From the NCBI GenBank assembly GCA_004322275.1, contig SCTA01000004.1, forward strand, positions 1 to 45,592: a stretch of 45,592 bases of DNA, read 5' to 3'. This document shows positions 2,661 through 22,505 of the stretch, piece by piece (position 1 is the stretch's first letter; each line of letters starts with the position of its first letter). Both the position numbers and the translations under genes were made by a program. The notes beneath the pieces were generated by a model, which was not told where the DNA came from, did no database searches, and worked only from the letters and a program-made list of their open reading frames with translations. This DNA is from a bacterium. GTDB taxonomy: Bacteria > Desulfobacterota > Deferrisomatia > Deferrisomatales > BM512.

Positions 2661-4286
2661 CTACAAATAAACCCTTATTCCTCCTCCGTCCTGCGTCCCG
2701 ATTCTGCCGGTTTTCCTGAGGATTTCGCCGAACAGCTCCGCCCTGAAAAGCGGGATGGGTTTTTCTCCGGCGGGGGTTTCGGCGTGGAGGAGGCCGTCGT
2801 CAAGGAGGCGGCGAAGGAGCCTTGCTCCGAGGGCGTTTCTTCCTCCCAACCCGTCGGCGATTCCGAGCGCTTTTTCGATACCGGCCTCTTTTCCTCCCAG
2901 CGGCAATCCCTTGAGAAAATTTACGATTCTCGCTGATACGAAGAGGGTGAATATATCTTCCCTGCTGAAATTTTCGTTGTCTCTGCCCATCGCGGTGAGG
3001 CGGCAGCGGACGAAATCCGCCTCCGTGAAGTCAAACTCCTTCGCCATCGGCGACCCCGGCGCGAGGTAGAAGGGCGAGGCGCCCATCAGGACGGGGAGGC
3101 GGGCGAGGAAGGCGAAGGTTTCGGTCATCGAGGCGAGAGTTTCACCCGGCAGGCCGAGTATCTGGTAGGCGACGATGCGGTAGCCGAGCGAAAACCCGGT
3201 CAAAACCGTCTCGCGGAATTTTTCCCGGTCGAAGGGCCTTCCCGCCAGTTTTGAAACCCCTTCGTCGAGGCTGACGAGCGCGAGGTTGAGGTGTGTGAAA
3301 CCGGCCCGCTTCATAAGGCGCAGCAGCTCTTCGTCGAGGCCGTGGTAAGAGACCCCGTTCATCGCCTGCAGGACAGGACCGTCTTCGGGAAATGCGGCGA
3401 TTATCTCCCGGCAGAGTCCGGTGAAGAAGTCCCGGTCGAGGGTGAGGTTGTCGTCCTCGAAGTCGAAGACGCGGTAACCCGCCTCCCACCGGTTTTTCAT
3501 CTCGCTGACGATATCGCTGACGGGCCTCGTACGGTAGCCGGAGCCGAAGACCGAGGAGACGGAGCAAAAGCCGCAGTTCACCGGGCAGCCCCGCGAGGCT
3601 AGCAGCGGAGCGAGGGGAAGCTTTCCCATCCGGTAGCGGCGCGGGTCGAAGTCCGAAAAATCCGGCGGTGGCAATTCCGCAAGCGGGTAGTTCGGTTCGA
3701 CCGGGTTTTGCTGAATCTTTTCACCGCTACGGAAGGCGAGATTGGGAACCTTCGAGAGTTCCCCCGTTCCTCCAAGCGCCTTTACCAGTTCTACGAGAGG
3801 CCTTTCCCCTTCGCCGCGGATCACGTAATCCACGACTCCCGATTTCAGCAGGGAAGCAGGGGCCGACGACCCGTGCGCCCCGCCGGTGACGACAGGAACG
3901 CCGAGGCGGGCCTTGAGCTCCTTCGCCAGCGCGCGAGTGTCTTTATAGTAGGCGGAAAAGAGGCAGGAGATGCCGATTAAATCGGGCTTCTCCCTCTCGA
4001 CTTCCCGCGCGATATCTTCAAATCCTGCTCCGAAATGATAAAAACCGTGGAAGGTTCCGAAGGGGCTCTTGTCGGGGTGGGGGTAGAACTCCCGGAGATC
4101 GGCAAGCTCCGGTAAAAGCTCTACGGTTCTTCTGCCGTGGCCCTGCCTGTAATCCCGGACTTCGACCTCAACGCCGGGGATGTGCTTCATTAGCGCGGCC
4201 TTGAGGGAACAGAGCCCGAGCGGCAGGAGCCTTAGTTCCGTGTCGTAGAAATCTCTCGCAGGAGGCTGGAGCAGGAGTATCTTCAT
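2661..4286 (-). CDS. B12-binding-type radical SAM protein
   Basis: This 541-residue protein has the two-part layout of cobalamin-dependent radical SAM enzymes. The N-terminal Rossmann-like B12-binding domain spans about residues 1-170 (KILLLQPPA at the start, then DLIGISCLFSAYY and VVTGGAHGS). The radical SAM core begins at about residue 225 with the iron-sulfur motif Cys234-x3-Cys238-x2-Cys241 (SRGCPVNCGFCS). The next segment (FDFEDDNLTLDRDF) is typical of the family. Enzymes of this type methylate or rearrange unactivated carbons in lipids, hopanoids or secondary metabolites. The canonical His of the B12-binding DxHxxG motif is not evident, so the domain may bind B12 base-off or not at all. 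No biosynthetic neighbours point to a substrate. It stands alone and converges on the C11 protease gene. Confidence 0.87.
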   Translation of the reverse strand: MKILLLQPPARDFYDTELRLLPLGLCSLKAALMKHIPGVEVEVRDYRQGHGRRTVELLPELADLREFYPHPDKSPFGTFHGFYHFGAGFEDIAREVEREKPDLIGISCLFSAYYKDTRALAKELKARLGVPVVTGGAHGSSAPASLLKSGVVDYVIRGEGERPLVELVKALGGTGELSKVPNLAFRSGEKIQQNPVEPNYPLAELPPPDFSDFDPRRYRMGKLPLAPLLASRGCPVNCGFCSVSSVFGSGYRTRPVSDIVSEMKNRWEAGYRVFDFEDDNLTLDRDFFTGLCREIIAAFPEDGPVLQAMNGVSYHGLDEELLRLMKRAGFTHLNLALVSLDEGVSKLAGRPFDREKFRETVLTGFSLGYRIVAYQILGLPGETLASMTETFAFLARLPVLMGASPFYLAPGSPMAKEFDFTEADFVRCRLTAMGRDNENFSREDIFTLFVSARIVNFLKGLPLGGKEAGIEKALGIADGLGGRNALGARLLRRLLDDGLLHAETPAGEKPIPLFRAELFGEILRKTGRIGTQDGGGIRVYL

Positions 4287-4309
4287 CGCGCATTTCTATC
4301 ACAAGGGAC

Positions 4310-4343
4310 AAAAAAAAGCCCCGCTTCGATGTAAAGCGGGGCT
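4310..4343 (-). terminator. Rho-independent terminator of the cytochrome operon
   Basis: Read on the minus strand, a 10-bp perfect stem (4334-4343 with 4317-4326, arms AGCCCCGCTT/AAGCGGGGCT) is followed directly by a run of seven Ts (A-run at 4311-4317 on the plus strand). It sits 23 bases past the stop of the 13-heme cytochrome and so ends the porin-cytochrome operon. Confidence 0.9.
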
Positions 4344-4366
4344 CTCAAGGTTAATGAAGAGTTTTT

Positions 4367-6604
4367 TTACGGACGTGTTACCGCGTTGTCGTTGGCGGTG
4401 TCGCCGTCTTCCTGGAACCATTCCGCGACCACCGGGTAAGCGGAAAGGTCGAGGGCGCCGTCGAAGGTTCCGTTGTCAAGCTGGTCTATGGAGTCGAAGA
4501 TTATTCGCTGCGCGTAGATGCGGTTGTGAGTGTAGGCTCCGGCCTCGCTGGCGAGAATCTTCTGGTTCTGGAGAGCGCCGTAATCGTTCAGCGTCACCAG
4601 CGGGTCGTTGACGTTTGTAGAGTTGTCGATGTCGAGGTCGATGTAGTTCTGAACGTCGTTGTTGAGGTAGTCGGAGAGGAGCTGGTTGGCGGCGGTGAAG
4701 CCGGTTTTCTGCTCTTCGAGCTTGGCGGCGGTAATCGCGTAGGGATCGACGTGGCAACCGGCGCTGTCGCAAACGGCCTGATTGGTTATGGCGGTGATTA
4801 CACCCGCCTCGGTCGTGACCGCCGCGAGGGTGTGCCCGGCGCCGTCGTTCATGTGGCAGGACGCGCAGGGGCCTCTTCCGGTTTCAGGCGAGTCGGCGTT
4901 CAGGCCGATCTTGTCGTGCTTGAAGTAGGCCACGGGCGTGTAGCTGAGGCTCGGGAACTCGAAGAGGGTGTGGGTCTTCGCGGCGTAGAGGATGCCCGCC
5001 GCAGGCAGGTAGTGTATGCGCGTGCTGGTTGAGCGGGCCGCGGAGGTGGTCTTCAGGTATTCGCCGTTGGCGCGGCCGCCGTGGCACTTGACGCAGACCA
5101 CGGATTCTCCCGCGTCGGCGGTTCCGAGGGTGGCGAAGGTGTTGCCGTCGCGATCGACGAGAATGACGGCGTCGGAGGTCTTGACGCCTCCGGCGTTGTT
5201 CTTGTGGCAGCCCCAGCAGTAGAGCATTTCGTTCTGGCCGGAGGAAACCGCCTCGTCCACGTCGGCGGTCGCCGGGTCGTCGGCGGTCCATCCGGCGAGA
5301 TGGGAGAAATTGTTCAGAGAAGGATCGTAGGACGCGGGACCCTTTATGAAGTTGGAAAAGCCCGTCGCGGTGTGGCAGACCTGGCACGCTTCCTCGTCAG
5401 CGCTGTCCCAGTCAACGTCGGACCAGCTGGAGGCCGCGCCCGCGGCCTGCACCGCGACGCTCTGCGCGAGGGTCCTGTCCGTGGCTCCGGCCGCAGCGGT
5501 TTCCTTGGCTGCGAAGACGGTTCCGCCGTGGCCTGTTTTTGCCCAGTCCTCGTTGATCGCCACGCCGCCCTTGTGCACGTCGTGGCAATCCCTGCAGGAG
5601 CGCTCGCTTGCGTCCTTCACTACGTAGCCTTCGATTACGTCGGTGGTATCCGGGTCGTCGAAGTGGGTTGTAGCGATTATGCGGCCCCATCTCTTGGCGT
5701 GGTAGAGCAATTGGGTTCCGCCGGTGGCGCTGATCAGGCCGGTGTCCGAGGTGGAGCCCGCAGCGGCCGGGTACTGGGTGCCGGTCAGCTTCACGTTGTC
5801 CTTCTGGTGGCAGTTTATGCAGGTGTTGTACTCGGCGGAGGCTGTGACTTCGCCGGTATCCTCGTCTTCGTTCTCAGCCTTGAGCAGTTCGTTGGGATTG
5901 TGCGCATCGTGACAGGTGGCGCACTGGATGTTCGAGGCGGAGGGAACGGGTAGAACCAGTCCGGCGAGCTGCTCGACGGTGGTTACGTCCTTGTAGAGCT
6001 TGCCGCCTTCGTGATTGTGGCACCTGGCGCACTTGGCCGAGTTGAAAAGCTCGTCGGCCCCGCCGTGGCCGGATGACTGGTAGGCGGCGAGTATGTTGTT
6101 GCCCTCCGGGTGGTAGGGCAGGTGGCTGTCGGGGATGGTTGCGTGGCAATTTCCGCAGATGGCTACTCCCGGTGTGGGCACGGGCATCGGGCCGACGCCG
6201 AAATGTTCTCCGCCCGCGCCGTGGCAGGCTTCGCAGGTGACAGCGGCGAGCCCGCCTTCGGGTATATTGGCGGCGGGTATGGTTTCCTCCAGGGTGACGC
6301 CGTCGCCGACGGGATCGTGGCAGGTCAGGCACTCTTCCTCTTCGGCGGAAACGTGGGTGGAGTGAACGACGTGCTTGCTCTCAAGAAATTCCGAAACCGC
6401 CTTTGAGCTCCAGGTAAAGCCCTCATGGCATTCGATGCACTTGTCCGCGCCGGTGAAAGCCCTTCCCTCGGCGTCTACTCCGAAGGGGTTCTGAAGGCCG
6501 GCGGTTTCATCCGCAGCCGAATCGAGGTTGCTTGAGCAGCCGGTGATGGCGAGGGCCAGAAGGGCGGCGCTCGCGGGAACAATGAAAATATCGCGGGTTT
6601 TCAT
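4367..6604 (-). CDS. 13-heme outer-membrane c-type cytochrome lipoprotein
   Basis: This 745-residue lipoprotein (lipobox AITGC, Cys23; no Asp at +2, compatible with outer-membrane sorting) has twelve CxxCH heme-binding motifs. They start at residues 56, 92, 124, 150, 192, 228, 262, 337, 407, 463, 504 and 580. A thirteenth site of CX4CH type (CDSAGCH) lies at 612-618. The last ~125 residues carry no heme motif. As third gene after a porin and a periplasmic decaheme cytochrome (gap of 14 bases), it fits the exterior electron-releasing subunit of a porin-cytochrome conduit, the role of OmcB in Geobacter or MtrC in Shewanella. In length and heme number it is closest to OmcB-like proteins. Likely acceptors are Fe(III), Mn(IV) or other extracellular solids, which is inferred from the family only. 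Confidence 0.9.
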   Translation of the reverse strand: MKTRDIFIVPASAALLALAITGCSSNLDSAADETAGLQNPFGVDAEGRAFTGADKCIECHEGFTWSSKAVSEFLESKHVVHSTHVSAEEEECLTCHDPVGDGVTLEETIPAANIPEGGLAAVTCEACHGAGGEHFGVGPMPVPTPGVAICGNCHATIPDSHLPYHPEGNNILAAYQSSGHGGADELFNSAKCARCHNHEGGKLYKDVTTVEQLAGLVLPVPSASNIQCATCHDAHNPNELLKAENEDEDTGEVTASAEYNTCINCHQKDNVKLTGTQYPAAAGSTSDTGLISATGGTQLLYHAKRWGRIIATTHFDDPDTTDVIEGYVVKDASERSCRDCHDVHKGGVAINEDWAKTGHGGTVFAAKETAAAGATDRTLAQSVAVQAAGAASSWSDVDWDSADEEACQVCHTATGFSNFIKGPASYDPSLNNFSHLAGWTADDPATADVDEAVSSGQNEMLYCWGCHKNNAGGVKTSDAVILVDRDGNTFATLGTADAGESVVCVKCHGGRANGEYLKTTSAARSTSTRIHYLPAAGILYAAKTHTLFEFPSLSYTPVAYFKHDKIGLNADSPETGRGPCASCHMNDGAGHTLAAVTTEAGVITAITNQAVCDSAGCHVDPYAITAAKLEEQKTGFTAANQLLSDYLNNDVQNYIDLDIDNSTNVNDPLVTLNDYGALQNQKILASEAGAYTHNRIYAQRIIFDSIDQLDNGTFDGALDLSAYPVVAEWFQEDGDTANDNAVTRP

Positions 6605-6618
6605 CTATTCCTCCTTTA

Positions 6619-7467
6619 TTAGTGGCACTTGCGACAGGTCTTGCCGCCGCTGGCTTTATCCATTTTACCTTCAACGTCTTCCCACCCCTGGGGGTGAGGA
6701 TTGACACCTATGCCCGTTATGGCGCTGTGGCAGGTCAGGCACTCGTCACCCTCTGGGTGGCATACCTCGCAGGTGGCGAGATTCCTTCTGGCCTCGCGGG
6801 CGTGGTCGCGGGTCCAGTTATGGGAGGGCAGCACCGAGCCCTCCGGGTGGCAACCCGCGCAGGAATCGGGATCTTCGGCGAAATCCCCGTGATTGGAACC
6901 GCTCACGGCTATCGAACTCCAGCCTTTGCGGTGAGAGAGCACCGAGAGGTCTTCGTCCCTGAAATCCTCGTGGCACTCGACGCAGTAAGAGTTCTCGTGG
7001 CACCTGGCGCACTTTTGCTGATCGGTGCGCGCCGCGATGGGGTGGCTGACGGCGAATTCGCCACGGTGGATGTTGAAGGGGGCGTTGGCATAGTCCCCCT
7101 GCTCGTCGGCTTTGCCGGCTTCGTGGCACTCCGTGCAGCCTATTGCGCCCTGGAGCTTCCCCTCGTCGTGGCATTTTTCGCAGGTCTTGTAGTCGCGCAG
7201 GGCGAAGGGGCCGTGGTCGAGGCTCCAGAGAGGGCCGTGGGACTTGAGACCCGTGAAGGTGACCTCCGCCATGAATTTTTCGTCATGGCATTTTTTGCAG
7301 GTTTCGTTCGAGGGAATGACGCTTTGGTCGCCGGGCAGGTGACAGGCGGCGCAATCGCCGCCGGTTACGTACTGGCTGACGTGGTCTTTCATCGAGAATT
7401 GCGCCGCGAAGGCCAAGGTAGCTCCGCCGAGGCCGACTAGCGCGAGGATCATGATTTTCTTACGCAT
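6619..7467 (-). CDS. Periplasmic decaheme c-type cytochrome of the conduit
   Basis: The 282-residue protein has a signal peptide (about residues 1-22, cut near AFAAQ) and ten CxxCH motifs at residues 39, 57, 96, 111, 153, 162, 203, 233, 243 and 278. The last heme motif is the C-terminus itself (the protein ends CRKCH). There is no lipobox, so it should be soluble in the periplasm or plugged into the porin. Ten hemes equals MtrA of Shewanella, while the OmaB proteins of Geobacter have eight. Its place between porin and outer-surface cytochrome, with gaps of 16 and 14 bases, indicates it carries electrons from periplasmic carriers through the barrel. A ribosome-binding site (GGGAGA) precedes the ATG. 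Confidence 0.9.
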   Translation of the reverse strand: MRKKIMILALVGLGGATLAFAAQFSMKDHVSQYVTGGDCAACHLPGDQSVIPSNETCKKCHDEKFMAEVTFTGLKSHGPLWSLDHGPFALRDYKTCEKCHDEGKLQGAIGCTECHEAGKADEQGDYANAPFNIHRGEFAVSHPIAARTDQQKCARCHENSYCVECHEDFRDEDLSVLSHRKGWSSIAVSGSNHGDFAEDPDSCAGCHPEGSVLPSHNWTRDHAREARRNLATCEVCHPEGDECLTCHSAITGIGVNPHPQGWEDVEGKMDKASGGKTCRKCH

Positions 7468-7483
7468 CGCTTGTCTCCCTGGT

Positions 7484-8692
7484 CTAGAAGCGGTAATTCA
7501 GCCGTACGCGGCCGAGGTAATATTCGTCGTAAAGGGCGCTGTCGGCCCGTTCAAAATTGGCTTCGAGCGAGAAGGAATCGGTAAGCTCGGACTTTGCGAA
7601 GACCCAGTAGCGCCTGCTGAGCGTCTCGTCCTTCTCCTCGATCCTTCTTTCCAGCACGTCGTAATTGACGCCGAAACCGGGCTCGAAGTAGCGGTTGACG
7701 AGGTATGCGTAGCGCAGTTTTATACCCTTGAGGCTCTGCCCGTCCTCGTCGTCGCGGAAGGTGCCCAGAAGGTACCCCGACCAGACGCCGGTGCGCAGCT
7801 TTTCCGCGCCCGCTTCGTATACGTTCGCGTCGGAGTAGTCCTCGTACATCTCATTCGTGTATCTGGCGACTGCAAGGTACCCTTCGCCCATCCTGCATTC
7901 GTACTCCAGCCCCGCCTCCCTGTATTCGCTGACGGCGAAGACCGAGTAGATGGAGGTGGACCGGAAAACCGGGATATCGTAGAGGTAGCGGGCGCGAAGC
8001 GAATGGCGCTGAGACGGGTGGTAGTCCGCCTCGGCGAAAAAGTGGCTCGGCTGCATCAAAAGGAGGTTGTACTGCGCGGCTGCGAAGAGCTCGAAAGAGT
8101 CGCTAAAGTCGTAGCGGCCGTCGACACCCGCCAGCTCCTTTGAAAGGTCGCTGGACTCCCACTCCTGAAAGTAGGCCACGGAAAGGTCGCCGTCGTCGTG
8201 GAGGGCCAGCTTGGCGGAAGCCCCGTAGGACTTGTCCCCGGCTTCGTACTCGTCTTTCTGCGATACCCGCACGCCTCCGAAGGCTTTCAGCGTAACGGGC
8301 CCAAGCCCCCGCGAGGTCAGATCGACGCCGTCGATTATTCCGGCTCCGGCGGCGGTGGATACGAATTGCCTTCCGAGCCGAAGGTCGAGTTTTTCGAGGA
8401 GCTTTTCCTTTTCGATGTAGGCGTAGTAAAGCCTGCTGTCCCGGTCCACCTCGTTTTGCAGATCGTCGGCGAGTCTCCCGTAGCCCCTGAATTTAAGGCC
8501 GGAATACCCGCCGAGATCGCGGACGTTGAGAAAGCCGTAGAGGTAAGCCGGCACCGCCTGATCGCCTTCGGGGGTGTCGAACCATTCCACGGTCGCCGAG
8601 AGGCGACCGGAGAAGGATTGCTCTGCGCGCGCGCCCGCGATGAATGGCGCGCACAGCGCGAGCGCCGCAGAAAGTAACAAAATTTTCCTCAT
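7484..8692 (-). CDS. Outer-membrane porin-like beta-barrel of the electron conduit
   Basis: This 402-residue protein has a signal peptide (residues 1-23, cut near ARAEQ). The rest is alternating beta-strand sequence rich in Tyr, Asp and Arg, ending in an aromatic residue (RLNYRF) as outer-membrane barrels do. Strands such as SGLKFRGYGRLAD, GYLAVARYTNE and IKLRYAYLVNRYF are visible through to the end. It is the first gene of the operon and has a strong GGAGGAGAC ribosome-binding site. In porin-cytochrome complexes the barrel holds the periplasmic cytochrome in contact with the outer one; sequence conservation between such barrels is low, so the assignment rests mainly on context. At about 380 mature residues it is nearer the Geobacter OmbB size class than the larger MtrB. 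Confidence 0.82.
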   Translation of the reverse strand: MRKILLLSAALALCAPFIAGARAEQSFSGRLSATVEWFDTPEGDQAVPAYLYGFLNVRDLGGYSGLKFRGYGRLADDLQNEVDRDSRLYYAYIEKEKLLEKLDLRLGRQFVSTAAGAGIIDGVDLTSRGLGPVTLKAFGGVRVSQKDEYEAGDKSYGASAKLALHDDGDLSVAYFQEWESSDLSKELAGVDGRYDFSDSFELFAAAQYNLLLMQPSHFFAEADYHPSQRHSLRARYLYDIPVFRSTSIYSVFAVSEYREAGLEYECRMGEGYLAVARYTNEMYEDYSDANVYEAGAEKLRTGVWSGYLLGTFRDDEDGQSLKGIKLRYAYLVNRYFEPGFGVNYDVLERRIEEKDETLSRRYWVFAKSELTDSFSLEANFERADSALYDEYYLGRVRLNYRF

Positions 8693-9003
8693 GTCTCCTC
8701 CCTGACCGGCTGGTTAAAGATTATTTTGTGAACCTACGAGGCGGGAAATTAATCCGCATGGCTTATGCGCAAATTCGACCCACCATGGTTAAATACTACA
8801 ATGTTTTTATTTTTTTCCAACCCCGGAAGGACAATTTAATTGGTAAAGAAAAACATTTTTTCGCGGAATGCTGCTTCGCGGGTGTATTTCCGGCGGGCGT
8901 CGGACAAAAATTATTTACCGGATTCGGGCCTTCCCCAAGCGGATTTTTTGCATTAAGCTGTATATAAAGTAAAACGCTGTTTAAAAATGCGCGGAGGGGT
9001 TTC
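8693..9003. other. Divergent intergenic region
   Basis: This 311-base region separates the divergent porin operon and the carbonic-anhydrase-like gene. It is AT-rich, with a poly-T/A stretch near 8800-8820 and a TATATAAA stretch at 8961-8968. It should hold both promoters. I see no gene, riboswitch or clear operator palindrome in it. Confidence 0.5.
8793..8820 (-). promoter_or_regulatory. Candidate sigma70-type promoter of the cytochrome operon
   Basis: On the minus strand TTGGAA (8815-8820) and TAGTAT (8793-8798) are separated by 16 bases, about 100 bases upstream of the porin start. The surrounding sequence is strongly AT-rich compared with the coding DNA. Both boxes are imperfect matches, so this is only a candidate. 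Confidence 0.3.
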
Positions 9004-10055
9004 ATGCATACGCAGGGCAGATCCATCCACGAGAGAATAGAGTGGCTCTTCGAGCTGGCCGAAAGGCATTCAACCGAGTACCGGAGCCCCGAAGCCTACC
9101 TCGCCCGCGAACACTACCTTGCCAAACACCCCACCGCCATTGCCGTCCTCAAGTGCATGGACGGGCGCATCAACATACCCGTCGCTACAAGAACCCCCCT
9201 CGGCATAATCAGCCCTTCAGGAACCTCGGGGGGATGTTCGACCTGGGGTGGCCCCACCTCGGCGAGGTGCTTGCCCACCACATCACGCAGATGGTCGCCA
9301 GCGGGCGAAGGGCGCTCATCTTCATCACCTACCATTTTTCGCGGGGAGACAATCACCGCAGCTGCGCCGGGTTCAATTACGACACCGAAAAGGCGATAGC
9401 CCACACTTACTCGATAAAAAGGCAGGCGGAACATATCTTCGGCGCGAACCACGGCACCGTGTACCCGATAGTCTGCGGCTTCGAGACCGACGAGGACGCG
9501 CTGATACTTCATGGCTGCAAGGGCGGCAAGCTCGACGTCTCGGCCCTTAAACCGGCGGACGCCAAATCCCTCGCCCCGCGCCTCTCCTCGCTCTTTCCCG
9601 ATATGCCCGACCAGATGCTGGAGGACATTTTGCCCCTTTTGCGCGGTAACATGCTCCATATAGAGAAGGTGCGGCGAACACCCCGCCTGCTGGACATAGA
9701 GCACCGCGAGTGGATGATCTGCCTCGGGCGGGGGTTCGACTTTCTCCATACCCCGAACCTCGCCCTCATCATCGGCCCTTACAGCCCCGATCTCTCGGAC
9801 CCTATACGCAAGGCCGCCTCGATAATAGAGTCAAACATGAAGGAGGGGAGGGTGCCCGACGACGGTTTCCTGCTCCTCGCCTCGGTTCCCTACGACGAGA
9901 TAGGGGTGGACAGGGCGAGGGCGGAGCTTAAATCCCTCTTTTTGTCGGATTTCGCGGCGAACGTCATCCGCAGCGATTTCCCCGAGCTGGCCACGAAGAT
10001 GTTTACCCACACCGCCGTGCTGGACTGGAGATCGAGGGCGTTGGAAAAGGTCTAG
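9004..10055 (+). pseudogene. Beta-carbonic-anhydrase-like protein, frameshifted
   Basis: Two overlapping frames form one ~351-residue protein. The first starts at ATG 9004 with a GGAGGGG ribosome-binding site and reads sensibly through VATRTPLGIIS. The second continues from FRNLGGMFDLGWP to the stop at 10055. The break lies at about 9211-9216, where one missing base (probably in the CCC run at 9213-9215) would restore a single frame. Zinc-site signatures of beta-type carbonic anhydrases occur on both sides: CMDGR (Cys51) before the break and HRSCAGF after it. The arrangement resembles proteins annotated as carboxysome-shell carbonic-anhydrase-like, but no carboxysome genes are nearby. Both halves keep normal codon use, so this is either a recent mutation or a sequencing error. 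Confidence 0.75.
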
Positions 10056-10071
10056 GTTCTCTTTACGGCGT

Positions 10072-10093
10072 CACTCCCGCGAATGCGGGAATA
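10072..10093. repeat. Short palindromic repeat (GTCA-CTCCCGC type)
   Basis: TCCCGC (10075-10080) and GCGGGA (10085-10090) pair around GAAT and are followed by ATAGAC. It belongs to the same class as 33606-33632 and 42988-43017, a widespread type of dispersed intergenic hairpin in many bacteria. It lies between the convergent carbonic-anhydrase-like and transaldolase genes. Confidence 0.6.
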
Positions 10094-10128
10094 GACGGAA
10101 GCAGCCGGAATTATCAAGGTTTGCGTTT

Positions 10129-11220
10129 TCATTTCAGGTTTTTCGCTTTTTCCTCTATCGCCTTCAGGAGCGAATCGTAGGAATTCTGGAATAATTTCAG
10201 CCCGTCCACGAGAAGTTTGTCTGTGACCGCGTCGATGTCGATGCCTGCCCGCGCGAGCTCACTTCTGCGCGCCGCGGCTTTGTCCACGTCGTTTTCGATG
10301 GTGGGCAGAACCTTGCCGTGATCCATGAAGGCGTTAAGGGTGGCCAGCGGCATGGTGTTTACCGTCAACGGCCCGATAAGATTGTCCACGTACTTGGTGT
10401 CGGGATAGGCGGGGTTTTTCGTTCCGCTCGAAGCGATGAGGAGCCTCTGGTAGTGAGCCCCGACCTCTCCCAGCTTCTCGCAGTGGGGGGTGGTGAAGAT
10501 ATCCTGGAAGCTCTTGTAGGCGAGCCGGGCGCTGTCGATGGCGAACTTTCCCCGAAGATCGGTCCGCCTGGCGTTCTCAAGCTCCCGGTCCATGGCGGTG
10601 TCCAGCCTGCTCACGAAGAGCGAGGCCACGCTGGAGGACTTTCTCAGATCGCCTCCCTTGTATTGGCGCTTTTGAAGCCCCTCGACGTAGGCGTTGGCCA
10701 CCGCCTCGTATTGGGCGAGAGAGAAGATGAGGGTGACGTTTATGTTCACTCCCTCGGCGGTCAGAGTCCTGAAAGCTTCGATGCCCTCGGGGGTGCCGGG
10801 AACCTTGATGAGGACGTTCGGCCTCCCGACGGCCTTGAAAAGCCTTTTGGCCTCTGCGACCGTCTTGTCGCGGTCATGGGCGAGGGCGGGGTTTTCTTCG
10901 AGGCAGACGAAGCCGTCAACCTCGTTCGAGGCCCGAAAGACCGGAAGGAGCGCGTCCGCCGCCATCCGGATGTCCTCGAAGACGAGTGCTTCGTAAAGAT
11001 CCGCGGGGCTCTTCGCTCCGCCCCTGACGGCTTCGGCAAGAGCTTTGTCGTAATAATCGCTCTTGGCTATGGCGTTTTCAAAGATCGTGGGGTTCGAGGT
11101 GACGCCCTTTAGCCCTTTACTCACCAGCTCCGAAAGCCCTCCGGAGAGGACGAAATTCCTGTCGATGTAGTCGAGCCACGCTGATTGGCCTAGTGAGGCG
11201 AGGTCTTCGAGTTTTCCCAT
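10129..11220 (-). CDS. tal: Transaldolase
   Basis: This 363-residue enzyme transfers a dihydroxyacetone unit between sugar phosphates in the non-oxidative pentose phosphate pathway. Family signatures are GVTSNPTIFENAI at about residues 39-51 and the Schiff-base Lys139 in NVLIKVPGTPEG, followed by GVNINVTLIFS. The length matches the longer class of bacterial transaldolases rather than the ~215-residue TalC type. It lies 16 bases downstream of the phosphoketolase gene on the same strand, so the two are almost certainly co-transcribed. Together they would interconvert fructose 6-phosphate and pentose phosphates and split them to acetyl phosphate. Confidence 0.95.
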   Translation of the reverse strand: MGKLEDLASLGQSAWLDYIDRNFVLSGGLSELVSKGLKGVTSNPTIFENAIAKSDYYDKALAEAVRGGAKSPADLYEALVFEDIRMAADALLPVFRASNEVDGFVCLEENPALAHDRDKTVAEAKRLFKAVGRPNVLIKVPGTPEGIEAFRTLTAEGVNINVTLIFSLAQYEAVANAYVEGLQKRQYKGGDLRKSSSVASLFVSRLDTAMDRELENARRTDLRGKFAIDSARLAYKSFQDIFTTPHCEKLGEVGAHYQRLLIASSGTKNPAYPDTKYVDNLIGPLTVNTMPLATLNAFMDHGKVLPTIENDVDKAAARRSELARAGIDIDAVTDKLLVDGLKLFQNSYDSLLKAIEEKAKNLK

Positions 11221-11236
11221 TTTAGAGCTCCTGTCG

Positions 11237-13597
11237 TTACCCTTTCCAGGTCCAGTTTCTTATTTCCGGCATGTCTTCGCCGTATTTTGAGATGTACTCC
11301 TTGTGGTCCACCAGCTTTTCTCTGAGGGATTTCGCCGCGTATACGCCCTTGGAGCCCAGCTTTGGAACGCGGTCGATGACGTCCATCACGAGGTGAAAAC
11401 GGTCGAGATCGTTGCAGACCGCCATGTCGAAGGGGGTTGTCGTGCTGCCCTCCTCCTTGTAGCCGCGAACGTGGATGTTGGGATGGTTCGTTCTCCGATA
11501 GGTGAGGCGGTGGATGAGCCACGGGTAGCCGTGGTAGGCGAAGATTACCGGCTTGTCCTTCGTGAAGAGCGCGTCGAAATCCTTGTCCTTAAGGCCGTTT
11601 GGGTGCTCCTCGCTTGGCTGGAGGGCCATCAGGTCCACCACGTTAACCACCCTTATTTTCAGCCCGGGAAAATTTTCGCGCAGGAATTCGACTGCGGCGA
11701 GGGTTTCGATGGTCGGCACGTCCCCGGCGCAAGCCATCACCACGTCCGGCTCGAAGTCCCTGTCGTTGCTTGCCCATTCCCAGATGCCGATGCCCGCCGA
11801 GCAGTGTTTCAGCGCCGCGTCCATGTCGAGCCACTGGGGGTTCGGCTGTTTTCCGGCAACTATCACGTTTATCCTGTTGCGGCTGTTGAGGCAGTGGTTG
11901 GCGACGCAAAGGAGAGTATTGGCGTCGGGCGGAAAATAGACGCGCACTATGTCGGCTTTCTTGTTGACCACCACGTCTATGAAACCGGGATCCTGATGAG
12001 AGAAGCCGTTGTGGTCCTGCCGCCAGACGTGGGAGGTGAGGAGGTAGTTCAGCGAGGCCACCGGACGCCGCCATTCGATTTCTTTCGACGCGACCTTAAG
12101 CCACTTGGCGTGCTGGTTGAACATCGAATCGACGATGTGAATGAAGGCCTCGTAGCAGGAGAAAAAACCGTGCCTGCCGGTGAGGAGGTAGCCTTCGAGC
12201 CACCCCTGACAGGTGTGCTCGCTCAGTATCTCCATCACCCGCCCCTCGCGGGAGAGGTTCTCGTCCTCGGGGAGTATTTCGTCCATCCAGACGCGGCCAG
12301 TCACCTCGAAAACCGGGTCGAGCCTGTTGGAGGCCGTCTCGTCGGGGCCGAAGACCCTGAAATTCTTCTGCTCCATGTTCAGGGCCATCACGTCGCGAAG
12401 ATACCCGCCCAGAACCTTCGTCGCCTCGGCCGAGGACGCCCCCGGAGACGGGACCTCGACCTTGTACCTCTCGAAATCCGGGAGCCGCAGCTCCTTTAAC
12501 AGCTCTCCGCCGTTCGCGTGGGCGCTCATCCCCATCCGCCGCTCCGGTTCCGGCATCAGTTTTTCAAGTTTCGCAACCGGCTTTCCCCCGGCGTCGAAAA
12601 GTTCCTCCGGGCGGTAGCTTCGCAGCCATTTTTCCAGTATCCCGATGTGACCGGGCTTCGTGGCGAGGTCGGTCAGCGGAACCTGATGGGAGCGCCAGAA
12701 TCCCTCGGCTTTTTTACCGTCGATCTCCTTCGGACAGGTCCACCCCTTCGGTGTCCGGAATATTATCATCGGCCACTGCGGCCTTGATGTGACGCCGTTT
12801 TTCGCAGCCTGTTTTATACCCCTTATGTCGGCGAAGACCTCTTCGAGGGTCCCGGCCAGAAGGTTGTGCATAGCCGCCGGGTCGTCTCCCTCGACGAAGT
12901 AGGGCTTGTAGCCGTACCCGATGAAGAGGGATCTCAGCTCGTTCTTGCCGATGCGCGCCAGAATGGTGGGGTTGGCTATCTTGTAGCCGTTCAGGTGGAG
13001 TATGGGGAGCACCGTCCCGTCGCGAGAGGGGTTAAGGAACTTGTTCGAGTGCCAGGAGGTGGCAAGCGGCCCGGTTTCGGCCTCCCCGTCGCCGACGACG
13101 CAGGCGACGATGAGCTCGGGGTTGTCGAAGGCGGCTCCGAAGGCGTGGGAAAGGCTGTAGCCGAGTTCACCGCCCTCGTGGATGGAGCCGGGGGTCTCGG
13201 GGGCGGCGTGGCTCGGTATGCCGCCGGGGAAAGAGAATTGGGTGAAGAGCTTTTTCATCCCCTCGGCGTCGCGGGATACGGAGGGGTAAAATTCGCTGTA
13301 AGTTCCTTCCAGATAAAGGCTCGCGATGACTCCCGGAGCGCCGTGGCCGGGGCCCGCGACGAAAAGGAGCTCGGCGTCGTGTTTTATGATTATCCGGTTG
13401 AGGTGCGCGTAAAGGAAGTTTATGCCGGGAGTGGTCCCCCAGTGTCCCAGGAGCCTTGGCTTTACGTGCGAAAGCGTCAGAGGCTCCCGAAGGAGGGGAT
13501 TGTCCAGAAGGTAAATCTGACCCACGGAGAGGTAATTGGCCGCACGCCACCAGGCGTCGAGAACCTCCAGTTCCTCCACGGAAAGTGAAAAGCCCAT
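11237..13597 (-). CDS. xfp: Phosphoketolase (xylulose-5-P / fructose-6-P)
   Basis: The 786-residue thiamine-diphosphate enzyme cleaves xylulose 5-phosphate or fructose 6-phosphate with phosphate to give acetyl phosphate plus an aldose phosphate. The sequence shows [21 protein letters not shown] (residues 82-88), the thiamine-binding GDGEAETGP (169-177), and later segments [12 protein letters not shown] and [14 protein letters not shown] that are typical of the family. The frame stays open 89 codons further upstream, but that part is low-complexity repeat DNA. ATG at 13597 has a good GGGAG ribosome-binding site and gives the normal family length. It heads a two-gene unit with transaldolase. 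Which of the two substrates it prefers cannot be told from sequence by eye. Confidence 0.95.
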
Positions 13598-14092
13598 AAC
13601 CGCTCCCTTGCGCAAAAGGTGTTCGGGCCGAAGACCCCGATGGGGTTTAAGCGTACACCCTGCGCCGGAATCGGCAATCTTGAATGCGTAGCCCCGCTCT
13701 TTCCGCCCCGGTTGTCTTGGCTTCGGCTTTTTCCGCAATGCATCGTTGCCGCCTGCGCCGGACGCTCGCCGTATAAAACGATACTGTCTTCGCGTCCTTG
13801 CTCGGCGGCGCCTCGCCTGACGAAAAAATCCAAAGCCAAATAAAAAACAAGGGAGATGCTCCACCCTCTCGCTACGGATTACTCTTATTTCAGGGATTCG
13901 AGCACGGCTTTTTTATAGTCGGCGCGCAAGCTTGAGTTCGATTTCACATTGTATTGATAGCACCAGGCGTGATAAAAAACCACGCATGGAATTTAAAAAT
14001 TCTTGTACCGCATAAAGAAATTAAATTTAAATTATTTTAGTCATAATTAGAGGTGACACAGCCGGAATAAAAAGAAGGGGAAAGGAGGCGCC
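13598..14092. other. Intergenic region with dispersed repeat copy A
   Basis: This 495-base region lies between divergent genes. The half next to phosphoketolase is GC-rich and contains a copy of a ~110-bp dispersed repeat (about 13727-13831). The half next to the phospholipase gene (13870-14060) is AT-rich and probably carries promoters. No gene is evident. Confidence 0.5.
13727..13831. repeat. Dispersed ~110-bp intergenic repeat, copy A
   Basis: This element shares its start (CTTCGGCTTTT), its centre (CCGTATAA-ACGATACTGTCT) and its end (GCCTCGCCTGACGAAAAAATCC) with copies at about 40764-40866 and 44164-44276, with small gaps. All three lie in the same orientation and outside genes. It has no open frame of its own. 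Confidence 0.6.
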
Positions 14093-17979: not shown

Positions 17980-18245
17980 TTTTCAGATTCCCAAAAATCG
18001 TGCGCCGCGCTTTCGCGGTTAAAGCCAGCCCCACAATTGTCGCCCCGGCTGGCCCTTTTGCAAGAAATGATACATCGCCCCGAGAAAAACTCTGTGCTTT
18101 TTTGTTACCCGGTGGTTTGATTGCAGTATATGCAAGGTGTTGTTATTGTTTTCAGGTAGAATTTTACAAATTCCGAAATAATCTCCGGACTCCCCCAGCG
18201 GGACCCGGCGGCGTTTACATATGGTTTTCCCTGAAAGGGCGGTTA

Positions 18246-21200
18246 GTGAACATAGCTGATAAAACGACGGTAAAAAAGCATCGTTTTGACGGGTACGGGT
18301 TTGTGCTCGTCTCTCTGGTTATAGGGGCTCTTCTGCTCCCCGGATTCCTCTTCGCCGCCCCCGCAATGCCGCAGCCGGTAACCGTCGGGCAGCCTGACGG
18401 CTCCGTCCTGAAGATACGGGTCAGGGGCGACGAATTTCGGGCGTGGACCGAGACCGAAGAAGGTTACACGGTAATTAAAAACGACCGGACAAAGTTTTGG
18501 GAATACGGCCGGACCGGATCTTCCGGCGATATCGAACCCTCGGGAATAGTCGTCACTCCGGCCGAAAAGCCTCCCCAAACCCTGCAAAAGCACCAGAAGC
18601 CCGGATTCAACACTGAGAAATACGACAGGCTAAAGAAGCTGCTCGAAAACAGGCGCGCCGAAGTATACAAAAAAAGCTCCAGGGGCCGGGCGGCGACTCT
18701 TCCCGGGGCAAAGCCAGCCCAGGGCTTCGCCGGAGCGGCGGCGCCTTCTTCGGGTTATAACCCCTGGGATCCGCTGGAGGTTCCGCTGACCGGCACCCAA
18801 AACCTTCTGGTGGTGATGGTGAATTTTTCAAACAAATCTTTTGTCACTACCCCGGACAGCTGGAATTCGATCATCTTCAACACAACCCCGGGAGCGAAGT
18901 CCCTCTCCAATTTCTACAAAGACAACTCCGCCGGAATGATAACTTTTAATCCAGTTAACCACACCCAGCCGGGCAAGCCCAAAGGCATCGTAGCGGTAAC
19001 CCTGTCGCAGGCGCACCCGAACAGCAAGGACAACTTTAATTACGACGTCGAGACGGCCTGGATAACGAGCGCCCTTTCGGCGGCGTCGGGTTACGTGAAT
19101 TTCCCCTCCTACGATCTTGACGGAGACGGTTATCTGGGAACCGGTGAACTGAACGTTTACTTCATAGTCGCCGGTTACGAAAGTGCTACCGGTCCCGCAT
19201 CGCCCGGTATCTGGGCTCACGCCTGGAGCGGGGATATCTACGTGGCCGGAAAGACAATCTCCCAGTGGGCGATGAACGGCGAGCTCTTCAACGACGGCCG
19301 GCAGATGACGATGGGAGTGATGACCCATGAGATGGGACACTCCATCTGCGGACTGCCCGACCTTTACGACACGTCCTACGCGAACGAGGGGCTGGGAATA
19401 TTCTCGCTGATGGCGGGAGGGGCCTGGGGCTTTGTCTCCGGCGAGAGTTCAGGCGAGACCCCTGCCGGTCTGGATGCGTGGTCGAGGTATTACCTCGGCT
19501 GGACGGTTCCGTACGAACCGGGTTCAAACGGTGAGACCCTTACCTTTCCAAGGTCGCTCGATCAGCGGGACAACGTGGTCAAGCTCGTGGACGAGGCGCT
19601 CTCTTCAAAGGAGTACTTCCTCGCCGAGAACAGGTATGAATCGGGGTGGGACGCGAGCATATTCTACGGCTCCAGCGGCACCTCCGGACTCCTTGTCCTG
19701 CATGTGGACACCGCGGTCGGCAGCAACGACAGCAGTGCAGGACCCCATCAGGGGGTAATGGCGGTGGAGGCGAAAAGCAACGTCTGCTCGCCCTCGGGAG
19801 ATTATGGCCCGCTCTGCGACGGACACTATACGAATCTGTTTTTCACCGGCAACAACGACAGATTTACCTACGAAACCTCTCCCGCCGCCAGATTGTACGA
19901 CTCCCGGCCGGTAGACAGGGGACTGGTATCCGTTTCCGCCCCGTCTACAACGATGTCGGCCGTTTTATACAGGAATAACTCCGCCCCGCTGCTGTCCCCC
20001 ATCGGCGACAGGCAGGTGGGCGTCAACGAATTGCTGGAGTTCACGGTATCCGCCGTGGACCCGGAAAACGGCGCTTTGACGTACAGCGCCTCAGCCTTGC
20101 CTTCCGGCGCACTCTTCGATGGCGTCAGCGGTTATTTTCGCTGGACTCCCACTCTCGCCCAGTCCGGCGTTTACAGCATCACCTTCACCGCTGCGGACAA
20201 CGGACTGCCTTACGGGCAAAGCTCCAGCGAGACCATCACCCTGGTTGTGAACAACGATCCGCCGGTTCTGGGCTCCATAGGCGACAGAACCGTCAACGAG
20301 GGCGAACTTCTGGGATTCACGGTCCTGGCGGCCGACCCCGACGGCGACACTCTGACTTACAGCGCCGCCGGCCTTCCCTCCGGGGCAACGCTTGACGCGC
20401 TGAGCGGAGAATTCGCCTGGACTCCCGGCTACGCTCAGTCCGGCAGTTACAGCGTAACCTTCACCGTCAACGACAGGGGAGCGAATGTCGGGCAAAGTGA
20501 CAGTGAAACAGTCACCATAACCGTAAACAACGTAAACAGGCCGCCCATCCTTGAGCCAATCGGAGGCAGAACCGTAAACGAGAACGAAACGCTCGCCATC
20601 GGGGTTGAAGCGGCCGATCCTGATGGAGACGCGCTTGCCTACAGCGCCGGGGAACTGCCCGCAGGGGCCACTCTCAACGTCGCCACCGGCGCTTTCGGCT
20701 GGACGCCGGGGTTCGACCGGTCGGGTACTTACGACGTGACCTTCGCTGTGACCGACGGCAGTCTCTCAGCCAGCGAGTCCGTGACGATTACCGTATTGAA
20801 CGTCAACCGCGCGCCCGTGCTCACGGCTATCGGAAGCAGGAGCTTAAACGAGGGCGAGGGACTTGCTTTCACGCTAAGCGCCGTCGATGCGGACGGCGAC
20901 GCGCTCGTTTACAGCGCCACCGGACTGCCGCAGGGCGCGAATTTCAACCCCACGTCGAAGACCTTCGACTGGACGCCCGGCTTCGATCAGGAGGGCTCTC
21001 ACACGGTGACCTTTGCGGCGTCCGACGGCGCTCTTGGCGATAATGAAGAGGTGACGGTCACTGTAGTCAACGTGAACCGCGCGCCGGTGCTGACCGATAT
21101 TCGCAACAAGGCCGTCAACGCCGGAGAGACCCTGAGTTTTACGGTGACCGCCGACGATCCCGACGGCGATTCGGTAACTTTTTATTTTTCCTCCCTCCCG

Positions 21201-22505
21201 GCGGGCGCGCTCTTTAACGCCGCGACCGGGGAGTTCGCCTGGACGCCGGGCGAGGAGATGAGCGGGAACGACTATAAGGTAATCTTCGGGGTCAGCGACG
21301 GCGGCTCGCCTAACCTCGGTGACAGCGAAGAGGTTGTCATAACGGTCGGAAGCAACGTCAACCGCCCGCCAGAGCTGAGTCCCCTTGCCGATCAGGCGGC
21401 GGAGGCGGGGCAAAACGTCTCCTTTACCGTTTCGGCGATCGACCCCGAAGGGGGCCTCGTCACTTACCAGATGGGCAACAAGCCGGTAGGGGCTTCCTTC
21501 GACAACGCCACGGGCGCCTTTGGGTGGACCGCGGCGGGAGAAGGAAACTATCTCGTTACCATAACCGCGACCGACAGCGGGGTTCCTCCGAAATCGGACA
21601 CCGGCGAGGTGAACATAAGCGTGGGAGGCGTCAACCGCCCTCCTGTGCTCTCGAAGATCGGCAACCGCTCGATAAAGGAATTTGAAACCCTCGAACTGGT
21701 TTTGACAGCCTCGGACCCCGATTCCGACGTTGTCAACTACTCTGCCTCTTTACTCCCGGCGAATGCCGCGCTCGCGGGCCAACTGCTGGCATGGACTCCG
21801 GACTACGGTCAGGCGGGGAGCTATCCGATAACGCTGACAGCCACCGACGGCGGCTTTCCCCCCGCGCAGGACAGCGAGACCATCGTAATCACGGTCGGGG
21901 AAGTCAACCCTCCCCCCGTTCTCTCACCCATCGGCCCGAAGCAGGTAAACGAAAACGAACCGCTGGAAATTGTCCTTTCCGCCACCGACCCGGACGGCGA
22001 CGCGCTGACCTTTTCCGCCGTAAACCTCCCGCCGGGGGCGACACTGGGCGCGGATACGGGAATCTTCAACTGGCTTCCGGGCTTTACCGACACCGGCAAC
22101 TACAGGGTCACTTTCACCGTCCGCGACAACGACGCCGTTACGCCCCTTACCGACGGGGAAGAGGTGACAATCACCGTGGGCAACGTCAACAGGCCGCCGA
22201 TACTAACTTCCATCGGCAATCAGAGCGTCACCGTGGGGAGCCCCCTGTCGCTTACGGTTACCGCCGCCGACCCGGACGGCGACGCGGTAACCTACGGCGC
22301 AACCAGCCTTCCCGCCGGAGCCGTCTTCGAGGAAGGGGAGTTCTACTGGACTCCCGGCGACAGTCAGGAAGGCGCCTTCAGCGTGATCTTCGTCTCCTCC
22401 GACGGCGACTTGACCGACAGCGAGACGGTCACAATCTCGGTCTATTCCCGGCTCTCCGGGGGCGGCGCGGCCGCAGGGTGCTTTATTGAGAGCCTCTGGC
22501 GGTAG
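18246..22505 (+). CDS. Secreted M6-type metalloprotease with nine Ig/cadherin-like repeats
   Basis: With a GTG start at 18246 (GAAAGGG site upstream) the protein has 1419 residues. A signal peptide (hydrophobic VLVSLVIGALLLPGFLF, cut near FAAPA) is followed by an M6-type catalytic domain with the zinc motif HEMGH (361-365) and GLPDLYD just after. From about residue 578 to 1400 there are nine tandem repeats of roughly 91 residues, each with the pattern PPxLxxIGxRxVNExExL, DPDGDxLTYSAxxLPxGA, WTPG and VTITV. These are putative Ig/dystroglycan-cadherin-type modules. The product probably acts outside the cell on protein or polysaccharide-associated substrates. It ends in a short Gly/Ala-rich tail plus Cys (GGGAAAGCFIESLWR). 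The frame extends upstream to 18000, but that part lacks a start signal. Confidence 0.9.
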   Translation: MNIADKTTVKKHRFDGYGFVLVSLVIGALLLPGFLFAAPAMPQPVTVGQPDGSVLKIRVRGDEFRAWTETEEGYTVIKNDRTKFWEYGRTGSSGDIEPSGIVVTPAEKPPQTLQKHQKPGFNTEKYDRLKKLLENRRAEVYKKSSRGRAATLPGAKPAQGFAGAAAPSSGYNPWDPLEVPLTGTQNLLVVMVNFSNKSFVTTPDSWNSIIFNTTPGAKSLSNFYKDNSAGMITFNPVNHTQPGKPKGIVAVTLSQAHPNSKDNFNYDVETAWITSALSAASGYVNFPSYDLDGDGYLGTGELNVYFIVAGYESATGPASPGIWAHAWSGDIYVAGKTISQWAMNGELFNDGRQMTMGVMTHEMGHSICGLPDLYDTSYANEGLGIFSLMAGGAWGFVSGESSGETPAGLDAWSRYYLGWTVPYEPGSNGETLTFPRSLDQRDNVVKLVDEALSSKEYFLAENRYESGWDASIFYGSSGTSGLLVLHVDTAVGSNDSSAGPHQGVMAVEAKSNVCSPSGDYGPLCDGHYTNLFFTGNNDRFTYETSPAARLYDSRPVDRGLVSVSAPSTTMSAVLYRNNSAPLLSPIGDRQVGVNELLEFTVSAVDPENGALTYSASALPSGALFDGVSGYFRWTPTLAQSGVYSITFTAADNGLPYGQSSSETITLVVNNDPPVLGSIGDRTVNEGELLGFTVLAADPDGDTLTYSAAGLPSGATLDALSGEFAWTPGYAQSGSYSVTFTVNDRGANVGQSDSETVTITVNNVNRPPILEPIGGRTVNENETLAIGVEAADPDGDALAYSAGELPAGATLNVATGAFGWTPGFDRSGTYDVTFAVTDGSLSASESVTITVLNVNRAPVLTAIGSRSLNEGEGLAFTLSAVDADGDALVYSATGLPQGANFNPTSKTFDWTPGFDQEGSHTVTFAASDGALGDNEEVTVTVVNVNRAPVLTDIRNKAVNAGETLSFTVTADDPDGDSVTFYFSSLPAGALFNAATGEFAWTPGEEMSGNDYKVIFGVSDGGSPNLGDSEEVVITVGSNVNRPPELSPLADQAAEAGQNVSFTVSAIDPEGGLVTYQMGNKPVGASFDNATGAFGWTAAGEGNYLVTITATDSGVPPKSDTGEVNISVGGVNRPPVLSKIGNRSIKEFETLELVLTASDPDSDVVNYSASLLPANAALAGQLLAWTPDYGQAGSYPITLTATDGGFPPAQDSETIVITVGEVNPPPVLSPIGPKQVNENEPLEIVLSATDPDGDALTFSAVNLPPGATLGADTGIFNWLPGFTDTGNYRVTFTVRDNDAVTPLTDGEEVTITVGNVNRPPILTSIGNQSVTVGSPLSLTVTAADPDGDAVTYGATSLPAGAVFEEGEFYWTPGDSQEGAFSVIFVSSDGDLTDSETVTISVYSRLSGGGAAAGCFIESLWR
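19979..22450 (+). repeat. Nine tandem ~274-bp coding repeats
   Basis: The C-terminal half of the M6-type protease gene encodes nine consecutive ~91-residue modules. Adjacent modules are diverged in DNA but share the PDGD, LPxGA, WTPG and ETVTITV positions. The boundaries are the NVNRPP-type linkers between modules. Confidence 0.85.

Follow-up and report, generated by a model that had tools for sequence, protein, structure and literature searches.

We identified a three-gene porin-cytochrome operon on the minus strand of contig SCTA01000004.1. The whole 45,592-nucleotide stretch analyzed here (the window) forms a single contig within a 2.88-Mb genome that is listed as 100% complete. The operon runs in the order barrel, inner decaheme cytochrome, outer lipoprotein, and comprises the following features:

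7484..8692, minus strand: OmbB-type outer-membrane beta-barrel (402 aa, signal peptide, 22 predicted strands)
7468..7483, minus strand: barrel/decaheme intergenic gap (16 nt; 12-18 nt in most homologous clusters)
6619..7467, minus strand: OmaB-type periplasmic decaheme cytochrome c (282 aa, signal peptide, 10 CxxCH, exactly 10 other His)
6605..6618, minus strand: decaheme/lipoprotein intergenic gap (14 nt)
4367..6604, minus strand: OmcB-type outer-membrane lipoprotein cytochrome c (745 aa, 12 CxxCH and one CX4CH)
4751..4771, minus strand: atypical heme motif CDSAGCH (CX4CH), residues 612-618 of the outer lipoprotein
4314..4346, minus strand: strong intrinsic terminator at the end of the operon (14-bp stem, then a T run; -23.3 kcal/mol, z -5.9)

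The N-termini of all three proteins are signal-peptide-like as judged by eye, and the outer lipoprotein contains an ITGC lipobox at residues 20-23. Purine-rich ribosome-binding sites precede all three genes. Predicted mature masses without heme are 43.3 kDa for the barrel, 28.6 kDa for the decaheme protein and 76.1 kDa for the lipoprotein. A preliminary description of this DNA had proposed a single operon of a barrel, a secreted 10-heme cytochrome and a 13-heme lipoprotein, with gaps of 16 and 14 bases and one terminator. Open reading frames, motif counts and the hairpin bear this out at the coordinates it gave, while the operon's minus strand was absent from its text. Besides the two cytochrome genes, no reading frame in the window contains two or more CxxCH motifs. 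This observation, together with the recurrence of the three-gene order in dozens of genomes, excludes a chance origin of the operon.

Other genes in the window include one at 9004-10055 (plus strand) that is weakly similar to carboxysome shell carbonic anhydrase (E 0.016). Its N-terminal part (KCMDGRINI...) and its remainder lie in different frames near C and G runs, a possible frameshift that may reflect a misassembly or a disrupted gene. A transaldolase gene adjoins an XFP phosphoketolase gene at 10129-13864 (minus strand), suggesting a phosphoketolase shunt. The gene at 18000-22505 (plus strand) encodes a 1501-aa surface protein with an M6-type peptidase domain and many Ig/cadherin-like repeats.

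The decaheme protein contains 20 histidines for its 10 hemes, 10 within heme motifs and 10 outside them. Nine of the latter are kept in at least 50 of the 51 aligned rows that have at least ten hemes, as would be expected for a pure bis-histidine heme wire; a 10-row alignment (A2) was too diverse for a pattern scan. The gene is present in one copy in the window's genome, and a plasmid search returned no relative of its product. An AlphaFold2 model computed with 60 relatives reached a mean pLDDT of 60 and a pTM of 0.37 and was set aside.

The barrel was modeled with greater confidence (mean pLDDT 90.3) and has 22 strands in the model. Strand numbers of 18-22 are predicted for OmbB-type porins across the Pcc family in a published survey (PMC4245776). 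The model aligns best with 22-stranded receptor barrels enclosing a large plug (Z about 20). Many 22-stranded TonB-dependent receptors and ushers were listed by Foldseek and VIA-align, and MtrB was not among the listed matches. We read the receptor and usher matches, which come from a predicted fold, as reflecting strand number and not kinship. Sequence and profile searches of the PDB returned no relative of the barrel and only generic multiheme matches. Among the most conserved barrel segments across 8- to 11-heme systems is PVF(D/R)STSIYSVFAV (residues 241-254, minus strand). This segment, predicted as an interstrand loop that includes a short helix, is a candidate cytochrome contact.

The 13 hemes previously ascribed to the outer lipoprotein comprise 12 CxxCH motifs, which are plain in the sequence, and a thirteenth that depends on the atypical CX4CH motif. 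The corresponding alignment column is CxxCH in all 25 other outer proteins (alignment A7). The site is thus ancestral, and in the window protein the motif has been widened by an insertion of two residues. Heme binding by CX3-4CH motifs is reported for other proteins (PMC4245776), and CDSAGCH is by analogy a putative thirteenth heme-binding site. An independent CX4CH motif, CGNTRCH, occurs at heme site 4 of the outer protein of another locus (L113, 2131-4509), where relatives have CxxCH. Atypical heme motifs, as read from these alignments, recur among the surface cytochromes of this conduit family.

Profile searches link all three proteins to the OmbB-OmaB-OmcB-type clusters of Geobacteraceae, which supports the conduit reading first proposed for the operon. 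Inner proteins with 8 or 9 hemes were left out of the inner profile and the barrels paired with them out of the barrel profile, and all profiles were run on mixed targets. The inner-protein profile, which thus contains only members with at least 10 hemes, matches Geobacteraceae 8-heme proteins of 228-243 aa (4e-40 to 1e-52). Other porin-cytochrome loci rank next among the same targets (1e-32, 8e-18 and 6e-14), and cytochromes outside porin-cytochrome clusters appear at 7e-9 or worse. The barrel profile matches Geobacteraceae barrels of 403-418 aa (1e-77 to 1e-84), so the barrel is not an unrelated porin, the case that had been named as refuting the conduit reading. The outer-protein profile, which took in two clusters with 8-heme partners, matches 12-heme Geobacteraceae lipoproteins (7e-188 to 3e-177) and others more weakly. 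The Geobacteraceae matches form OmbB (~403 aa), OmaB (8-heme) and OmcB-type clusters, including a tandem duplicate in one genome (G150), and the homology is to Geobacteraceae genomes and not letter by letter to G. sulfurreducens PCA.

When run across 84,980 species genomes, the inner-protein profile picked up 66 loci, the majority of them in Desulfuromonadales. Cultured carriers include Geothermobacter hydrogeniphilus, Pelovirga terrestris (two copies) and Desulfuromusa kysingii. Among 394 genomes drawn across the phylum, 32 contain a relative at E≤1e-30. Where no contig end interrupts the locus, a barrel gene of about 400 aa almost always lies directly upstream of the inner gene and a multiheme protein downstream. 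The inner protein has 10 hemes at most of the 66 loci. Most full-length outer proteins beside 10-heme inner proteins have 13 CxxCH motifs, with 12 and 16 as variants; one tally of outer hemes runs low through start trimming. The combination of 10 and 13 hemes is therefore, on the motif counts, the usual make-up of a large, well-supported conduit clade in Desulfuromonadales, Deferrisomatales and others.

Relatives of the window's organism include a Deferrisomatales metagenome-assembled genome of the same taxonomic order (contig JARGFW010000114, genome G006) and BM512 of the same family (PKTT01000006, genome G002), so the organism is most likely an uncultured member of Deferrisomatales. The only other searched member of the window's genus (G001, 650 contigs) gave no barrel or inner-protein match, so the conduit may not be universal in the lineage. 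A literature search found nothing on the conduits of Deferrisomatales themselves.

An unrooted tree of 77 inner proteins places the members with 10 or 11 hemes on one side of a branch with 100/99 support, and the sole 8-heme row on that side (L109) is truncated where its contig ends. The 10-heme proteins form a group with 100/97 support that includes the inner protein of Desulfurivibrio alkaliphilus AHT2, and the window protein is sister to BM512 (98/95). Alignment resolves the 10-heme proteins into an 8-heme OmaB core and two insertions that carry one CxxCH each, the first N-terminal and the second central; the central one also supplies its own histidine. The 9-heme proteins have the central insertion only, and Deferrisoma-like relatives have an eleventh, C-terminal heme. 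Median barrel length is alike for 8-, 9- and 10-heme systems (404-407 aa).

These patterns allow a tentative reading, which we consider possible but short of probable, in which the clade records a stepwise lengthening of the wire. An 8-heme core would have gained one insertion to reach nine hemes, a second at the N-terminus to reach 10, with a related lineage adding a C-terminal heme to reach 11, the order of gains being deduced on an unrooted tree. With barrel size unchanged, the added hemes would have to change how the wire is packed, or else lengthen or thicken it beyond the bilayer. On the same tentative reading, the CX4CH motif of the window's outer protein would be a functional heme site where the ancestor had CxxCH. 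The natural series of 8, 9, 10 and 11 hemes at constant barrel size offers a good test bed for the effects of wire length and heme number on transmembrane electron transfer.

Several observations bear on whether the barrel and the cytochromes work together. First, the distance matrices of the barrel and inner protein correlate (Mantel r 0.86, 0 of 2000 permutations), whereas the outer protein correlates with the barrel and inner protein at r of about 0.25 (76 and 109 of 2000 permutations); these correlations partly reflect the shared ancestry of the genomes. The outer cytochrome is, by this measure, evolving more independently than the barrel and inner protein, in agreement with the literature, which holds surface cytochromes to be the more frequently exchanged. 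Second, the correlation between barrel and inner protein, with the adjacency of their genes in nearly all sampled uncut loci, argues against an envelope respiratory enzyme or storage complex built from the cytochromes, with the barrel as an unrelated co-transcribed porin. We consider this alternative very improbable. A complex cannot be proven from sequence alone, and NCBIfam has no dedicated model for the barrel (51 barrels scanned) or the decaheme protein (60 inner proteins scanned), which leaves this alternative some room. The decaheme protein nevertheless has enough histidines to bis-ligate every wire heme, leaving no evident catalytic heme. The missing models also imply that annotation pipelines may overlook such operons.

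The three genes, taken as a whole, are very probably best explained as a Pcc-family conduit that carries electrons across the outer membrane. The barrel would form a 22-strand sheath in the outer membrane, with the decaheme protein threaded into or through it and serving as a bis-histidine heme wire. On the cell's outer face, the anchored 13-heme lipoprotein would hand electrons to extracellular acceptors such as Fe(III) or Mn(IV) minerals, electrodes, humics or partner cells. The present analysis itself establishes the gene content, the heme motifs, the homology, the conserved order and the predicted barrel fold; we infer complex formation, barrel insertion, outward direction and the nature of the acceptors from characterized homologues. 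The outward step draws on the characterized Geobacter complex: in G. sulfurreducens, Fe(III) reduction requires the OmbB-OmaB-OmcB-type family, which also transports electrons across proteoliposomes (PMC4589669). By analogy, outward electron flow is likely in this organism, and the operon predicts respiration of extracellular acceptors in an uncultured Deferrisomatales lineage.

We regard as unlikely that the same conduit runs inward, taking up electrons from extracellular donors such as Fe(II), cathodes or partner cells. A heme wire is reversible in principle, and inward electron uptake proceeds through PioAB. Several clade members nonetheless come from genera known as Fe(III) reducers, an activity known in Geothermobacter and Desulfuromusa. 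The characterized members of the family also run outward (PMC4589669, PMC6148476). The Pcc survey describes Pcc clusters also in organisms incapable of reducing solid metal oxides, a distribution compatible with uptake, but it describes mtr clusters tied to Fe(II) oxidation as often lacking an outer cytochrome, whereas the one in this operon is large and retained (PMC4245776).

The genome contains additional electron transfer genes. A NapC/NirT-type cytochrome on contig C19 is a candidate quinol oxidizer. A second, different porin-cytochrome cluster lies on contig C32 (L047, G000:C32:12000-31999, positions 3534-12462). It encodes, in a row, a 1247-aa multicopper-oxidase-like protein, a small lipoprotein, a 441-aa barrel, and 5-heme, 24-heme and 4-heme lipoproteins, an Ext-like make-up with the addition of a multicopper oxidase. 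Further large multiheme proteins are encoded at five other loci (L023, L026, L017, L024 and L025), with 16-27 CxxCH motifs each within the stretch seen.

Comparison with known systems distinguishes likeness from descent. The operon would work like MtrCAB of Shewanella, with a barrel sheath, a decaheme inner wire and a surface cytochrome. From its heme numbers it had been described as joining an MtrA-like inner heme count to an OmcB-sized outer protein. A new hybrid subtype of this kind, with an MtrA-type inner and an OmcB-type outer cytochrome, is refuted as far as descent goes, even though the heme numbers of 10 and 13 can be read from the sequence. The DmsE/MtrA-type model TIGR03508 matched none of 60 inner relatives at E≤0.001 and did not match the window protein at E≤1, and a PDB profile search with the inner protein did not return MtrA. 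PF11854 (MtrB_PioB) matched neither the window barrel nor any protein in the window's genome, and MtrB-type NCBIfam models matched 0 of 51 barrels at the thresholds used. TIGR03507 (OmcA/MtrC family) matched two of 26 outer relatives and left the window outer protein unmatched, and PF22113 matched both the outer and the inner protein in a manner that looks driven by heme spacing. The 402-aa window barrel has 22 predicted strands, in contrast to the 26 of MtrB (PMC12133095), and the outer protein has 13 heme sites where that of MtrCAB has 10. The inner protein and barrel instead align over their full length with the 8-heme family, the 10 inner hemes being those of the OmaB core plus the two insertions, and an outer protein with 13 CxxCH motifs is the common partner of the clade's 10-heme inner proteins. 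The decaheme number is thus common to MtrA by convergence; as far as profiles can tell, the Mtr comparison is an analogy only and the heme number a coincidence.

The ExtABCD, ExtEFG and ExtHIJKL clusters of Geobacter likewise combine a barrel with multiheme cytochromes but contain 12-heme periplasmic proteins (ExtA/ExtG) and 5-heme lipoproteins (PMC6148476). The Ext-like barrel on contig C32 scores far lower (4e-23) with the barrel profile of the window family. The closest correspondence is to OmbB-OmaB-OmcB and OmbC-OmaC-OmcC (Pcc) of Geobacter, which share the gene order of barrel, periplasmic cytochrome and lipoprotein cytochrome, the ~403-aa barrel, and the 8-heme core with its histidines; the window outer protein is homologous to their 12-heme versions. 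The window operon differs in having 10 inner hemes instead of eight, through two insertions, 13 outer heme sites instead of 12, and no adjoining orfR/orfS-type regulator gene.

Shi et al. 2014 (PMC4245776) include Desulfurivibrio alkaliphilus, Desulfuromonas acetoxidans and Desulfurispirillum indicum in their Pcc Group II. The D. alkaliphilus AHT2 cluster falls in the window's 10-heme group, although an 8-heme lipoprotein adjoins its inner gene. From this one member we infer that the 10-heme clade corresponds to Pcc Group II. The distinct subtype suggested in the preliminary description accordingly stands as a clade in the tree but not as a new one, being widespread and including this Group II member (PMC4245776). 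By homology, the operon is a member of a known, conserved Pcc branch and not a new kind of system, and the Geobacter-type conduit has a broad, conserved decaheme branch.
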